A stretch of 28,687 nucleotides of DNA from a virus. The number at the start of each line of letters is the position of its first letter. Position 1 is the first letter of the stretch. The stretch covers positions 1 to 28,687 of the IMG/VR virus record IMGVR_UViG_3300049846_000217. One strand, 5' to 3'. The position numbers and the translations under genes are program-made. Shown piece by piece: positions 6,960-28,687 of the stretch. Under the pieces are notes generated by a model. The model saw only the letters and a list, made by a program, of their open reading frames with translations. It had not been told where the DNA came from and ran no database searches.

Positions 6960-9900
6960 CGTTATCTCCTTCTTTCTCTGAATCTAAACCGTCGAAAAGG
7001 TCTTCTCGGGCAAATTTACGTTGGGCGGTAGTGATCTTCTTCACTAGTTTTATCCTCTCCTCGTCGGTCATTTCTTTCCATTCCGGGGAGTTGATATTCT
7101 CTTTCAGGGATTCATAGATGTACGTCCCTGCTAACTTCTGGTACTCCTGAATTATAGAAGCATCGAGCTTCTTAACCTTCAAGGAGGCTTCTAAGCTTTT
7201 CCGCCCAGAAGGGGTGACGAGGGGTTTGTCGTCGTTGACCTTACTTAGTCGCTTAATCTCGTTGACGATCGGGTCCTTACTCTCCGTCTTGCTCATGAAG
7301 ACTGCGAAGATATTCCTATTCGAGTCGATCTCCCTGCCGTAGACGTCGTGTCTAATCGGGAGTTCATCCCTAAGCCCCGGGGTCGAGGTCTTCAGACCGC
7401 CCTTAAGCTTACCACCGATAGTGCCGTCACCGGTGGCGTCTCTGACTTTCCCGTCGGCAATCTCGGCCGACTGACGAACGCCGGCAGGAATGAACGACTT
7501 CTCCATATTCGTGAGGTAGTTCTCTCTAGCGTTCTCAGCAAGGCCCCCCTTACCAACCATGGCGAAGACGGAAGCAATCTGTTCCGCGAAAGTGTTATCC
7601 ACGAAGGCGTTAGCGCCGGCAGCCATGAGCTCGAAGACCTTAGTCACCTCGTCAGCGTCCTTGAAGTCCTTATCCTGCATCGTCTCACCGAAGTGGGTGG
7701 AGTACCAAGTATCCCCGAACTTAATAGAGTTCGGTTGCCAACCTTCGGCTTCCATTTGAGCCTTCTTGTCGTAATTAGTAGGGCCGTTGCCGGAGAGTTC
7801 TCCGTCTTGGAACTTCATTGTCATGAACCCGATTACGGCAGCGCCGAGAGCCATTCTAGCGAGGACGAGGTCACGTCTGGCACCACCAGCAGCCCAGTCT
7901 TCACGGTTCACTCTATCTAGGAAGCCGACAATTGGAGTCCTTCTCATCGCCATCCAGAATAACCTATCTGTAACACGAGAGAACGGAGTAATCATATGGA
8001 AGGCGAAACGTAAAGCCCTAGCCCCGTAGTTCTTCCGATTCTTCGGGCGGCTCTTGATGTTCTCAAGAACCTTGCCCATAATCGAAGGCTCGTCCACTAG
8101 CTGAGTCAACGCAGCGTGGGCGTCAGCCATCGCCTTCATACCGTCGGTAGGATTCTTCTGCAAGTCGGCAACCCGATCGAGGTAGTCCTGACCCTTCAGG
8201 TTCTCGGAGATGGCGATACGATGTGCCAGCCCGTTATACGACGACTGTTCGAGGAGCGAACGGAAGAAGGAGTCGGACATCGACAGCAGTCTGGTAGGCA
8301 CTTCGAGGGCCTGTCCGGGAGCCCCGAACTTCTTAGTGAAGAGATTTTGGCCGACTTCCACCTTACTGACGGAGTGGGTAGGCTTACCCTCCTTGTACGA
8401 CTTCATTGCCTCCGTGTACGTCCCCCACTCAGTCAAAGCTTGAAAGATGCCCATTTGTCTGGAAAGGACTTCTCTGGCAGAGACACGATCAGGGGTAGAG
8501 GCGAATCTCTTTCTCTGACCGATAACCGAGGCCAACCCGTGTTCAATCAAGTCAGTGTACGTCAATCCGGCGTTACCTAGGGCGTTCTTAACATGGGTCC
8601 CGAGCCCGTACAGCATCATGTTGTACCGGAAGGAGAGGATGTAGTCCTCTGGGAGAGGATTAAACGCGTCGTCTACGATCTTGTTAACCGCGGCAGGGTT
8701 GTCGGCGTGTAGTGCGATAGTTTTAGCTAGCGCCTCCAGTCCGCCCTTACTCTCTAGGATTTCAACCCCAGTCTTCTTAGCGACGTAACGGAGGGCGTCG
8801 AGATCGCCTCTGTTACTTTCCGCCGTAATCTTCAAAGCATTAAGAACCCTACCTGCTTCAGAGATAGCTCTCGACACCGAGTCTTGGATAAGTCGGTGAG
8901 TCGCCATCCTCTGAGCGAAGACGCGGAGATTGATATCGCTGTTATCACCTTCATCAATCGCGCGGACGATCTTCATCACCCGCTCACCTGACTGGACAAG
9001 GACACGACGCATCGCGAGGAGACGGGCCCCTCCGTTATCAGATGCCCAGTCCCGGACGTCCTTGAACGACATCCCGTTAGCGTCAGCGAAGGCCTTCACC
9101 TCGTCGTGAGACACTCTAGTCTTCGGAATTTCCTTCTCTACGGCTTTCATCACCGCGGCAATGTCTTCCGACGACTTCAGGTTGTCGAGGTTGATGTTGT
9201 TGACGAACTTGTTTACAGACTTCTCTTTCCCCTTCTCAGAAGTCGGGGAAGGCTTCTTTCTGACATACTTGTTGACAATCTTAGGATGGTTGTCGTCGAA
9301 TACGACATAGTTATGAGATCCCTCCCCATAATCGCGAGAGAAACCGTCTAAGAATTTAATCCCATCAAAACCCGCGTCCTTCAACGCCTTGCTGGCCTGA
9401 GCATCCCCGCCGAGTTTTGCAGACAGCTTCTTATAAAGGATGTCTCCGCTAGGCGAGGCGTTGTCAATCTCGTGTTGGAGGAACATCACCGCCGTCTCGG
9501 CGTCACGGAGTTTAGCTAATTCCTTAGCGTACTCAGGGGTAAGTCCTGCCCCGAAAGACTTCTGCCCCTCTGTTGCATCTTCTGAGAATTGTAGGCCTTT
9601 CTCTTTCAACTCTTGGAGAGCATCCTCGGCGTCGAGCATCTTCTGTTGAGCGGTGTAATACTCCCCGTACAGCTGTCGGAGCTCTGCTTGAGTACCGTAT
9701 TCGATACCAAGGTCTTTCAGTTTCGCTTTCTGGGCGTCAGTAGGCTGGAAATCCCAAGCAAGCCAATGCATATCATCAGGGAGGTCTACTTCATAAAGCC
9801 TTCCTTGATTGTTGCCGGCCCCTAAGTCCTTGAGAAAAGTTTTTGCTTCTTCTATAAGTTCAGAGTATTCTGGTTTATTGCCGGCAAGATTTTTTCTGCC

Positions 9901-25893: not shown

Positions 25894-27318
25894 TTAGCCG
25901 GCCATCCAACCGCCGGGAACATTAGCAAGATGGTGAATCGGACGGTAAACTGAACCCTCCGGGGCTGATTTTTCCTCACGAGGGACTCTCGGTCTGGAAG
26001 TGATTTTGTCGAAAATCTCCGTTAATCCCCAAACTAGGGCGTCGACTCTGTCCGGAGATCCGGTATTTTCGTTACGAAGGTTATCAATAGAGAAAAGACA
26101 CATCTGATCTTCTAAATGATCGAAACGACCGACGTGGTGGATTCTTCCTTGTTCATAAAGGGCCGAAATCGGCTCTGCTCGGACGTATTTCCCTCGGGAA
26201 GCGTGGACTAATTTGATCGGAACAGACCTATCAACAGTCTTAAGGACCGATCCTACCATCTCCCCGCCGTTATTCTTCTCCGCTACGATGCGGTCAGCGG
26301 ACCATTTTCGGTAAAGAGAGACGGCTTTCTTCGCCCATTCTTCCGGAGAACCCTTCAAGCTGCCGTCTTCGAGTACGTATCCTCTCGCGTAACCGTCTTT
26401 ATCTCTTGCGAGGCCGACTACGACGATTCCGGTTTCGTCGCTTCCCTCGTTCGAGGATGCGGCAGGGTCCACAGATACAACGATTTTCTCAAAGTCCGGG
26501 ACATTGTCTTTAATACGGTAGTTGTCAATAGATTCGCGCGTCCAGAGAGCGCCGGGGATGTCATCTAAAATCTCTCCTTCTAGCTCTTGTCGACCCAATC
26601 GGGTCCCGGAGTACTTGTCTTCGATCTCCTTGATGAAGGAGTCGGGCATATTCTGTGCGTTATCCCATGTCGCCCCCCGAGTGACAACGACTCGTGGATC
26701 CGCAACGAGCTTCCTAATGAGAGGTAGAGGCCGTGGAGTAGTGGTGACGATGGTGCGAGGGTAGTCGCCTAGTCTGAGTCCGAACTGGAGCTGGTCCCAA
26801 GTGTCTTGGCAGTATCGCCATTTCGCGAGTTCGTCGCACCACGCGGCGTCGTGCTGTGGACCTCGAAGCTGATCGGGTTCAGTGGCATTATATAAGGTTG
26901 CAATTGCACCATTAGGCCATATAACTCGTCTGTTCGTGGGTTGGAAGACAGGGCGGAAATCGGGTGGATGAACGGCAAGAAGACCGGATTCACCTGCGAC
27001 CATGACATCTCGCCCGTCCGCAGCCGTTTCAGCAACGAGAGCAATTCTAGAGCAGGAACCTCTTGATAGGGGCGTATCTCCGCAAACCCAATCTCGGATT
27101 GTTTCTGCCCCGGTTCTTGTCTTTCCGAAACCTCTTCCGGCGAGGATAAGCCAAGTATTCCACTCACCTTCCGGCGCAACTTGGTTCGGTCTTGCCCAGA
27201 AAGACCACTCATATTTAAGTCTCGCTTTCGCTTCCGCTGACAAGTTTGAGAGGATTTTTTCCCTCTCGTCCTCTGGTAGCGATGCGAGATATTGAGCGGG
27301 TGAAATCTGCTGCTTCAT
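25894..27318 (-). CDS. terL: Terminase large subunit
   Basis: A 474-residue packaging motor and nuclease. The ATPase is shown by the Walker A AGRGFGKT (60-67) and Walker B AAWCDELAKW (158-167, D162 and E163), with TTTPRP (192-197) as coupling motif. The nuclease domain has D284 in SVDPAASS, a middle AEKNNGGEM acidic motif, and a final SPDRVDALVWGLTE aspartate. The type resembles Terminase_6 enzymes of alphaproteobacterial phages and gene transfer agents. I start at the ATG at 27318, with GAGG 9 bases upstream; the frame extends to 27417 but those residues overlap the small subunit. The overlap with the small subunit is still 104 bases, which is unusually large. Confidence 0.95.
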   Translation of the reverse strand: MKQQISPAQYLASLPEDEREKILSNLSAEAKARLKYEWSFWARPNQVAPEGEWNTWLILAGRGFGKTRTGAETIRDWVCGDTPLSRGSCSRIALVAETAADGRDVMVAGESGLLAVHPPDFRPVFQPTNRRVIWPNGAIATLYNATEPDQLRGPQHDAAWCDELAKWRYCQDTWDQLQFGLRLGDYPRTIVTTTPRPLPLIRKLVADPRVVVTRGATWDNAQNMPDSFIKEIEDKYSGTRLGRQELEGEILDDIPGALWTRESIDNYRIKDNVPDFEKIVVSVDPAASSNEGSDETGIVVVGLARDKDGYARGYVLEDGSLKGSPEEWAKKAVSLYRKWSADRIVAEKNNGGEMVGSVLKTVDRSVPIKLVHASRGKYVRAEPISALYEQGRIHHVGRFDHLEDQMCLFSIDNLRNENTGSPDRVDALVWGLTEIFDKITSRPRVPREEKSAPEGSVYRPIHHLANVPGGWMAG

Positions 27319-27730
27319 TCTGGATGTCCTCGTATTTAATGGCTTCACCGTCCTTACCGGTATGCTCGACCTTATCACGGAGCATCCCGAGGTTCTTAGC
27401 AGCGAGTTCGATACCACGAAGTACGGCGGTTAGGTTGTTGTCCTGCTCAGCCTTTTCAATAGTACGGACGAGTTTCCGGATGACGTACTCTTCCGTCAAC
27501 GAGATCTCTTTCAATCTTTCCTCTGCACGCTTTTGGATGGCGGCACGGATATGGGGCTTCGAGAGAAGCTCGTGCCCGACTTTATTAAGATTCTCTCCGG
27601 AGTAACCGGCGATACGGGCGGCTTCAGTGGCGTTGTAGTCGGAAGTGAAGTAAGCCTCGACAAACATCTGCTGCCGAGGGTTCAATTCCTTATCTGCGGG
27701 GATATGGGCGAATTTCTCCCTGTTGTTCAC
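27215..27730 (-). CDS. terS: Terminase small subunit
   Basis: A 171-residue DNA-recognition subunit of the terminase. The N-terminal domain has LNPRQQMFVEAYFTSDYNATEAARIAGYS (read in two parts), SKPHIRAAIQKRAEERL, the Terminase_2 helix-turn-helix pattern. The middle helix (VIRKLVRTIEKAEQDNNLTAVLRGIELAAKNLGML, in parts) is the oligomerization region and ends near EHTGKDGEAI. The start is GTG at 27730, with GGAGG 5 bases upstream. It overlaps the large subunit by 104 bases. It probably binds a packaging site not identified here; the non-coding right end is one candidate. Confidence 0.92.
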   Translation of the reverse strand: MNNREKFAHIPADKELNPRQQMFVEAYFTSDYNATEAARIAGYSGENLNKVGHELLSKPHIRAAIQKRAEERLKEISLTEEYVIRKLVRTIEKAEQDNNLTAVLRGIELAAKNLGMLRDKVEHTGKDGEAIKYEDIQNEAADFTRSISRIATRGREGKNPLKLVSGSESET

Positions 27731-27916
27731 TTAATCCTCCACTACTGCGAAGTCGTAACGATTTCCCCAACGGCGAATCGTAGCGCCGTTGTATTGGAAG
27801 GAAGTCATCTCGGGAGTTTCTATTAATCGTGCGAAGGTGGCGTTCCTCTTAACAAAGGAGTCGACTAATTTCATAGCGTCTTCCTTAGATGAAGAGCCGT
27901 AGACTCTGGCCTTCAT
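27731..27916 (-). CDS. Small protein of unknown function
   Basis: A 61-residue protein with a short alpha/beta pattern: KARVYGSSSKEDAMKLVDSF, a helix, then RLIETPEMTSFQYNGATIRRWGNRYDFAVVED, read in parts. No family is recognised. It starts with ATG overlapping the HNH gene stop as ATGA, and its stop is directly followed by the start of the small terminase, so it belongs to the packaging module. It may be a DNA-binding or terminase-assisting protein, but that rests on position alone. Confidence 0.7.
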   Translation of the reverse strand: MKARVYGSSSKEDAMKLVDSFVKRNATFARLIETPEMTSFQYNGATIRRWGNRYDFAVVED

Positions 27917-28173
27917 TTTCTGCCCGCCTTTCTATTACGAGGGAAGGAACGGTTCTTAGCCTTGCTCTGTACGGCGAGATTCGAGAAGGAGTTATTCCTA
28001 GGGTTGTTGTTCTTATGAGCGACGTCCTTGCCGTCACCCTTCCGAACCTTTCCGGCTGCAATCATCTTCCTGCGAGCGGCGTTACGCATCGCCCGGCGCT
28101 TCTTCTGCTCGGGTTTGGCGTTATACTTCTTCTGGGCACGCTGACGGGCCGCCGTGTTCTTCTGCGACGCCAT
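27913..28173 (-). CDS. HNH-type nuclease-like protein
   Basis: An 86-residue, strongly basic protein. A GDGKDVAHKNNNPRNNSFSNLAV segment (47-69 in parts) gives a probable HNH pattern with H53 and the conserved N of SNL near residue 65, followed by KAKNRSFPRNRKAG. Similar short phage proteins sit directly upstream of terminase genes, where HNH proteins help terminase cut packaging ends in some cos phages. The usual first His or Asp before HK is not obvious (D50-V-A-H53), so the fold may be degenerate. It is the first full-size gene of the minus operon; its ATG overlaps the stop of the leader ORF as TAATG and has only a weak GGA upstream. Confidence 0.7.
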   Translation of the reverse strand: MASQKNTAARQRAQKKYNAKPEQKKRRAMRNAARRKMIAAGKVRKGDGKDVAHKNNNPRNNSFSNLAVQSKAKNRSFPRNRKAGRK

Positions 28174-28226: not shown

Positions 28227-28255
28227 ATTATACCATATATTGGATGTTTTGTCAA
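28227..28255 (-). promoter_or_regulatory. Consensus sigma70 promoter of the late operon
   Basis: On the minus strand TTGACA (28255-28250) is followed after exactly 17 bases by TATAAT (28232-28227), with the TGG of an extended -10. Upstream, toward higher coordinates, lie A-tracts that could act as an UP element. The start would be near 28220. It is the only promoter seen for the roughly 22-kb minus operon. Confidence 0.9.
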
Positions 28256-28314: not shown

Positions 28315-28343
28315 TTGACAAAATGTAATTTTCATGATATAAT
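28315..28343 (+). promoter_or_regulatory. Consensus sigma70 promoter, rightward
   Basis: TTGACA (28315-28320), exactly 17 bases, then TATAAT (28338-28343), with TGA before it giving an extended -10. T-tracts at 28261-28314 suit an UP element. Transcription would begin about 28350 and run rightward into non-coding sequence. The two -35 elements of the divergent pair are about 60 bases apart. Confidence 0.9.
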
Positions 28344-28349
28344 ATCCGT

Positions 28350-28550
28350 ACGGGGTGAGGGTTACTAAGTAATATTGGGGATAGAAACGTAGAAAAATTT
28401 ATCTTCCAGTATATAGGGGCAGGGAATGTAGGCCGACCGTAGGGAGGCAATACCCCCTAGAATGCCCTAGGAAGCTCGTACAGCGCGATTAGGCCGATAA
28501 CCGGTACATGACAGCCTTTCTTGGAGAGACCCTCTGAGAAGGGCTTATTT
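28350..28550 (+). ncRNA. Candidate ~200-nt phage RNA
   Basis: A promoter-driven interval with no usable reading frame that ends in a strong hairpin (28513-28545) followed by TATTT. Internal pairings seen are CCTAG-AATGCC-CTAGG (28456-28471), TAGGG with CCCTA around 28440-28459, TTAC-TAA-GTAA near 28362-28372, and a possible closing helix of GTACGG (28348-28353) with CC-G-GTAC (28501-28507) that would join the two ends. It could instead be a long leader of a gene beyond the window. No known RNA family is recognised. Its neighbourhood is the packaging genes. Confidence 0.4.
28513..28545 (+). terminator. Hairpin, possible terminator of the rightward RNA
   Basis: AGCCTTTCTT (28513-28522) pairs over 10 positions with GAGAAGGGCT (28536-28545), including two U-G pairs. 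A GG bulge is followed by AGAG-ACC-CTCT (28525-28535), adding 4 bp. The following TTATTTCG is only moderately T-rich, so termination may be partial. Confidence 0.55.
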
Positions 28551-28687
28551 CGTATCTACTGTTTGGAGATGATTTGGAAATTTTTTACTAGCGTCTTACC
28601 TCACTCTACGTACGCTACAGCACTCCGCGAGTCCATGCCCCCCCCCTCCCCCCTATCCCCTTGGAAACATTCACGAAATCCCCACCC
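28551..28687. other. Non-coding right end with C-rich tract
   Basis: No convincing gene. The tract from 28638 has nine Cs, a T, six Cs, TAT, then four Cs. An ATG at 28569 opens a frame to the window edge, but GGAG lies directly against it (1 base) and the coding choice is poor, including a proline run from the C-tract. It may be part of a packaging or end-associated region next to terminase genes. This is inference. Confidence 0.3.

Follow-up and report, generated by a model that had tools for sequence, protein, structure and literature searches.

The question raised by this locus is what kind of feature occupies some 200 bases of viral DNA that stand behind a perfect promoter, hold no gene and adjoin the packaging genes. 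The locus lies close to the right end of the window, by which is meant the entire 28,687-base linear virus record IMGVR_UViG_3300049846_000217. An earlier note on this DNA proposed a phage-encoded RNA here, with the packaging RNA of phi29 as a parallel by position and with a leader or an antisense regulator as alternatives.

Gene setting, promoters and relatives

The late operon is found on the - strand and encodes an HNH_3 protein, the small and large terminase subunits (TerS and TerL), a P22-type portal, a scaffold, the major head protein and an internal virion protein of 1788 aa. The HNH_3 protein of 86 aa is encoded by the first late gene (27913..28173, -; PF13392, 2.3e-06), TerS by 27215..27730 (-; phrog_51, 1.3e-23), and TerL by 25894..27417 (-), with matches to both the ATPase and the nuclease parts. 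Replication genes occupy the left end on the + strand, namely those for a gp2.5-like SSB, a Cas4-type exonuclease, a polymerase exonuclease and a B12-type ribonucleotide reductase. The closest named phages are ~53-55% identical in TerL, and the matches obtained by blastn against phage records were limited to the HNH gene and the AT-rich promoter stretch. A search of the window for tRNA and tmRNA genes found none. The HNH_3 gene is also the first late gene in the relatives L207, L208 and L005, while it is apparently missing from this place in L012 and L013, which have short late leaders. One in-frame TAG is present in ribonucleotide reductase frames at G005:C1:9390-11312 (the L013 record) and G014:C92:23536-25467; stop reassignment, an intein or intron edge, and a sequencing error are all possible causes.

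Two sigma-70 promoters, both matching the consensus at 12/12 positions, are placed back to back and diverge. The RNA promoter (28315..28343, +) reads TTGACA-17-TATAAT with an extended -10 (TG), and its earlier description as a perfect extended promoter is confirmed. The late promoter (28227..28255, -), which had been overlooked, is likewise TTGACA-17-TATAAT and points towards the HNH, TerS, TerL, portal and capsid genes. A promoter scan of the whole 28,687 nt gave at most 10/12 for every other sigma-70 match. Perfect promoters arose at a rate of 0.005 per stretch in dinucleotide shuffles, and in none of 3000 local shuffles.

Relatives were gathered by TerL, portal and TerL-alignment searches, the portal search adding few members. 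The clade sample consists of 37 loci with sufficient upstream sequence and a TerL at least 60% identical, and 42 loci below 60% were used for comparison. Among the 37, the late promoter is found in 37, the RNA promoter in 28 (with variants like TTGACA-17-TACCCT counted), a tandem-GA hairpin termed HP-A in 22, and an element made up of a T6 tract and a C-run in 25 by a strict regular expression, all counts being inflated by the near-identical loci L002/L003, L009/L013, L012/L014 and L016/L018. The corresponding numbers for the 42 comparison loci are 0, 1, 4 (scattered) and 0. The 60% split in TerL is a clean clade boundary, the phages within it being uncultured and short-tailed, and it is well supported that the locus is a real conserved feature. 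One member, L289, is a complete circular relative of 46,021 bp; it and one other contig can be closed into circles through end overlaps of k-mer length. L289 is JAGWWT010000008.1 (119-nt end overlap), a contig in a Patescibacteria MAG, where it has probably been mis-binned, so that this placement is not host evidence.

The predicted RNA and its tandem-GA hairpin

Transcription from the RNA promoter is likely. It would yield a noncoding RNA at 28350..28552 (+), with the 5' end set 7 nt past the -10 and the 3' end after a terminator-like hairpin. Neither the list of open frames nor a peptide comparison gave any frame of note within 28350-28550, and no peptide recurs among the relatives in this region, which bears out the earlier claim of about 200 bases without a gene. 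On the opposite strand there is no frame of at least 60 aa beneath 28350-28550, and the late transcript diverges without overlapping the RNA; a cis-antisense RNA is thus unlikely.

When folded, the 208-nt RNA differs from shuffles by z = -2.58 on the + strand and +0.92 on the - strand. Across members the folding energy is only modestly below that of shuffles and hardly differs between the strands (mean z -1.86 vs -1.54). The AT-rich 5' part is hardly conserved, and the members do not align there. In L004 (reverse strand ~320-50) this part consists of about six tandem AAGAGATTAAGTTCTATAGAGATAAGATAT copies. Rfam gave no match at the gathering score in the window or in 12 relatives, and nothing convincing in the window at a permissive E<10.

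Towards the 3' end, an intrinsic-terminator-like hairpin followed by TATTTCGT is found at 28513..28553 (+). The hairpin proper (28513-28545, -20.4 kcal/mol) has the 14 pairs described earlier, but not the bulge, the pairs being continuous with G-U included; six of 200 shuffles folded a 45-nt window equally well. A counterpart followed by T7 is found in L003, the nearest relative (TerL 77-78% identical). Two further helices had been proposed. The letters of a closing helix between GTACGG and CC-G-GTAC are present (at 28348 and 28501-28507), as are those of a CCTAG/CTAGG hairpin, but neither pairing occurs in L003, and neither is conserved. Compensatory changes across relatives, which had been suggested as a check, are absent for the helices named in the earlier note and present for one that it missed.

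That structure is HP-A, located at 28432..28448 (+), which in the window reads GCC-GA-CC-GUA-GG-GA-GGC. The general plan is a GGGC/GCCC or GGCC/GGCC stem, GA opposite GA, one or two more pairs and a loop of 2-4. RNAalifold found next to no consensus in a loose MAFFT alignment, and the hairpin was therefore tested in a hand register of 21 copies and in a gap-free subset of 11. In all 21 copies the outer pairs -1 and -2 remain paired while exchanging C-G/U-A and G-C/C-G; at the inner pairs C-G alternates with G-C or U-A, and both GA steps are constant. Pairing is kept at five pair positions that vary. Arms from the same copy pair at 3.86 of 4 positions, as compared with 3.29 for exchanged arms (maximum 3.71), and none of 20,000 shuffles reaches the observed value. 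The gap-free alignment of 11 sequences has seven cells changed on both sides, which is not equalled in 500 shuffles, and slid controls all fail.

HP-A nearly always lies on the RNA strand and in the same place, against about a dozen stray matches in 392 kb. Diverged second copies that largely keep the pattern are found in L015 and L289. A pattern scan of viral contigs added at least L111, L136, L144, L190 and L184, the matches listed being mostly due to chance. Exact hairpins of this type also occur outside the recognised clade context, in L126 (reverse 9815-9867, two tandem copies), L099 and L114.

There is good evidence from the covariation that HP-A folds as a single strand, a result that does not separate RNA from folded DNA. 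An RNA is the likelier of the two because the promoter points into the hairpin. In L005, L144 and L190 HP-A is retained although no promoter can be recognised, so it may instead be a plain terminator or single-stranded DNA. It might also be argued that there is no functional RNA at all, and that a chance promoter and terminator, or a transcription sink, explains the locus. Most of the RNA does diverge fast and the unit has been lost in several members, but with the RNA promoter kept by 28 of the 37 clade loci and a hairpin that covaries, this explanation is very improbable.

A second conserved part of the RNA region behaves differently from HP-A in that no overall covariation was found. The primary-sequence motif GAATGCCCTAGGAAGCTCGTACAGCGCG (28460..28487, +) is the 5' half of an inverted-repeat motif, the other half of which is CTGTACGGGCTTTAAAATCG in relatives and reduced to GAAGGGCTT in the window. 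At the level of sequence the long inverted repeat (CGATTTTAAG..CCGTACAG / CTGTACGGGCTTTAAAATCG) is conserved, and its halves pair strongly in L008, L046, L104 and L222. The corresponding long stem B5/B3 was considered as a covarying RNA core and rejected, its own partners pairing no better than exchanged ones (p = 0.61). The repeat may be a protein-binding DNA site.

Termination and the T6/C-run element

Most members have a T/C-rich tail after HP-A, such as TTTTTATTT in L220 and TTTTCTTTT in L224 and L289; in L104 and L212 the tails are weak. The window, L003 and L018 lack this tail and have a later terminator-like hairpin instead, at 28513-28545 in the window and with seven T in L003 and five T in L018. 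The sequences of the window and its relatives accordingly contain what looks like a short unit with an intrinsic terminator, and this unit appears to stop short of the T6/C-run element, with the hairpin responsible differing between members.

Downstream genes bear on whether the transcript is a leader. L003, L012, L013, L018 and L289 have early genes further along the strand of the RNA, and a cis-acting early-operon leader would control them through the nascent RNA, by put-like or nut/boxA-like antitermination or by attenuation, with the transcript running into the early genes. The fixed distance between HP-A and a CTCTTNTTGTCAA stretch in many members recalls a hairpin-boxA order. The put RNAs of HK022, ~70 nt with two stem-loops and located downstream of early promoters (PMC9378689), are likewise stem-loop RNAs downstream of a sigma-70 phage promoter. 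However, put lets the polymerase pass terminators, while here terminator-like hairpins come next, with T tracts in L003, L220, L224 and L289, and the early genes are distant. The first early gene with a ribosome site in L003 is ~0.7 kb from the RNA promoter, past the T7 terminator; the distance to the first early gene is ~0.65-0.8 kb in L012 and L013, and in L289 ~1.4 kb pass before the next gene on the + strand. Moreover, L013 and L208 have another TTGACA-type promoter past the C-run, and members without the RNA still keep genes on that side. Such a control leader must be regarded as unlikely, and the plain leader allowed for in the earlier note is also unlikely, given a next gene 0.65-1.4 kb on in relatives and terminator-like hairpins between. 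A further conserved noncoding element, GACGAACCGTGCATAAWAGCGATGAGTC, lies past the C-run and ahead of the first early gene in L013 (reverse ~6968-6940), L012 (reverse ~6990-6955), L208 and L025.

The T6/C-run element is a separate conserved DNA element at 28578..28646 (+), where the C-run follows 58 nt on from the T6 tract (GGAAATTTTTTACTAG ... CCATGCCCCCCCCC). It is present in 30 of 30 aligned members with the layout TTTTTTATNTAG..TGAGG..GCC and then a C-run ~60 nt from the T6, at near-constant spacing. The whole RNA unit is missing in several members, including L025, L215, L216, L218 and L232; these five and L225 keep the element without RNA promoter or RNA, and L005 keeps it without a recognised RNA promoter. 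The universal feature near the terminase is the T6/C-run element and not the RNA, and the element would be the better candidate for a cos/pac site or an origin.

One may then ask whether the locus is mainly a DNA region, where HP-A, the inverted repeat, T6 and C-run together form an origin or cos/pac site, the transcript activates or primes, and HP-A is folded single-stranded DNA or an insulating terminator. The constancy of the element, an inverted repeat conserved as sequence without covariation, the occurrence of HP-A without a promoter and the position upstream of TerS are consistent with this. So is the HNH_3 protein that adjoins the terminase, since the HNH protein of HK97 stimulates cos cleavage (PMC9410871). 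The comparison with HK97-type cos/pac regions, which extends to the noncoding region upstream of TerS, is weakened in that some clade members do not have the HNH gene at this place, and a cos/pac site here is a candidate from conservation. On the other hand, the promoter points into the unit and is kept as strongly as any part, terminator-like hairpins precede the T6 tract, HP-A is absent from some members that have the T6/C-run, and the GC skew of L289, uninformative on the origin, gives no mark at this point. A mainly DNA-based function is possible, but on balance rather doubtful.

Fur-box-like repeat arrays (TTGAGAATCATTCTCATTATC and variants) are located directly past the C-run in L289 (L370:4368-4510), and sites like GATAATCATTATTATC / GATAATTGATAATCAT lie beside promoters in L024 (reverse ~6850-6750) and L207 (reverse ~4340-4300); no such repeats were seen in the window. 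Clade contigs often end in the ~500 bp that separate the RNA promoter from the C-run, as at the right end of the window and in L004, L006, L014, L015, L136, L154, L204, L214 and L217. These clustered ends are either assembly breaks (microdiversity, homopolymers) or physical DNA ends.

A proposed small-RNA gene beside a conserved DNA element

The reading that we prefer, to which we give about an even chance, is a self-contained, host-transcribed and terminated small-RNA gene with an OOP-like organisation, situated beside the T6/C-run element. Immediately on genome entry, host sigma-70 RNA polymerase would initiate at the consensus promoter that faces away from the late one and make a noncoding RNA of ~100-480 nt across the clade and ~200 nt here, with the tandem-GA hairpin as its single conserved structure. 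The polymerase would stop at HP-A where the pyrimidine-rich tail is present, and at the later hairpin in the window, L003 and L018, in all cases before the T6/C-run. We infer the RNA ends and the use of host polymerase from the sequence. Next to a cis element that serves replication or packaging, the RNA might regulate, or its transcription might act, or both, and the terminator might keep RNA polymerase off this element; both such a regulatory role and the identity of the T6/C-run element are guesses.

The OOP promoter of phage lambda, pO, is linked to replication control (PMC12197685). Like OOP, the predicted RNA would be a short phage transcript that has a promoter to itself and neighbours other control elements. 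Whereas OOP is complementary to cII as an antisense RNA, the RNA predicted here overlaps no known gene, and the tandem-GA hairpin is a feature not shared with OOP; a sequence relation between the two was checked through Rfam alone.

The earlier suggestion of an RNA by the packaging genes stands as far as a conserved, apparently noncoding and terminated unit is concerned; the phi29 parallel does not. A packaging RNA joining the portal/terminase motor would resemble that of phi29 in being noncoding, of similar size and near the packaging genes, and position beside the terminase is all that speaks for it. The pRNA has been described as unique to phi29-like phages, where the terminase C-terminal domain is vestigial (PMC11476376). 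Against this reduced terminase, TerS and a full TerL with its nuclease part are present here, the five members named above have a terminase and manage without the RNA, and there is neither an Rfam match nor a shared structure; this function is extremely improbable. It is also a long shot that the HP-A RNA serves as a component of genome replication or packaging at the T6/C-run, for instance as a TerS-bound RNA or as a primer or R-loop RNA, otherwise replaced in the members that have lost it. If so, phage RNAs involved in DNA processing would comprise two kinds, the phi29 pRNA and this one.

The analysis adds an unlisted phage RNA locus supported by covariation, in a clade with complete genomes, and defines its anatomy as divergent consensus promoters, a tandem-GA hairpin, a terminator and a universal downstream DNA element. 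Should the neighbouring element be under the control of the RNA or of its promoter, the locus would offer a handle on early versus late transcription in these unclassified P22-portal phages, and on how their DNA is marked for replication or packaging.
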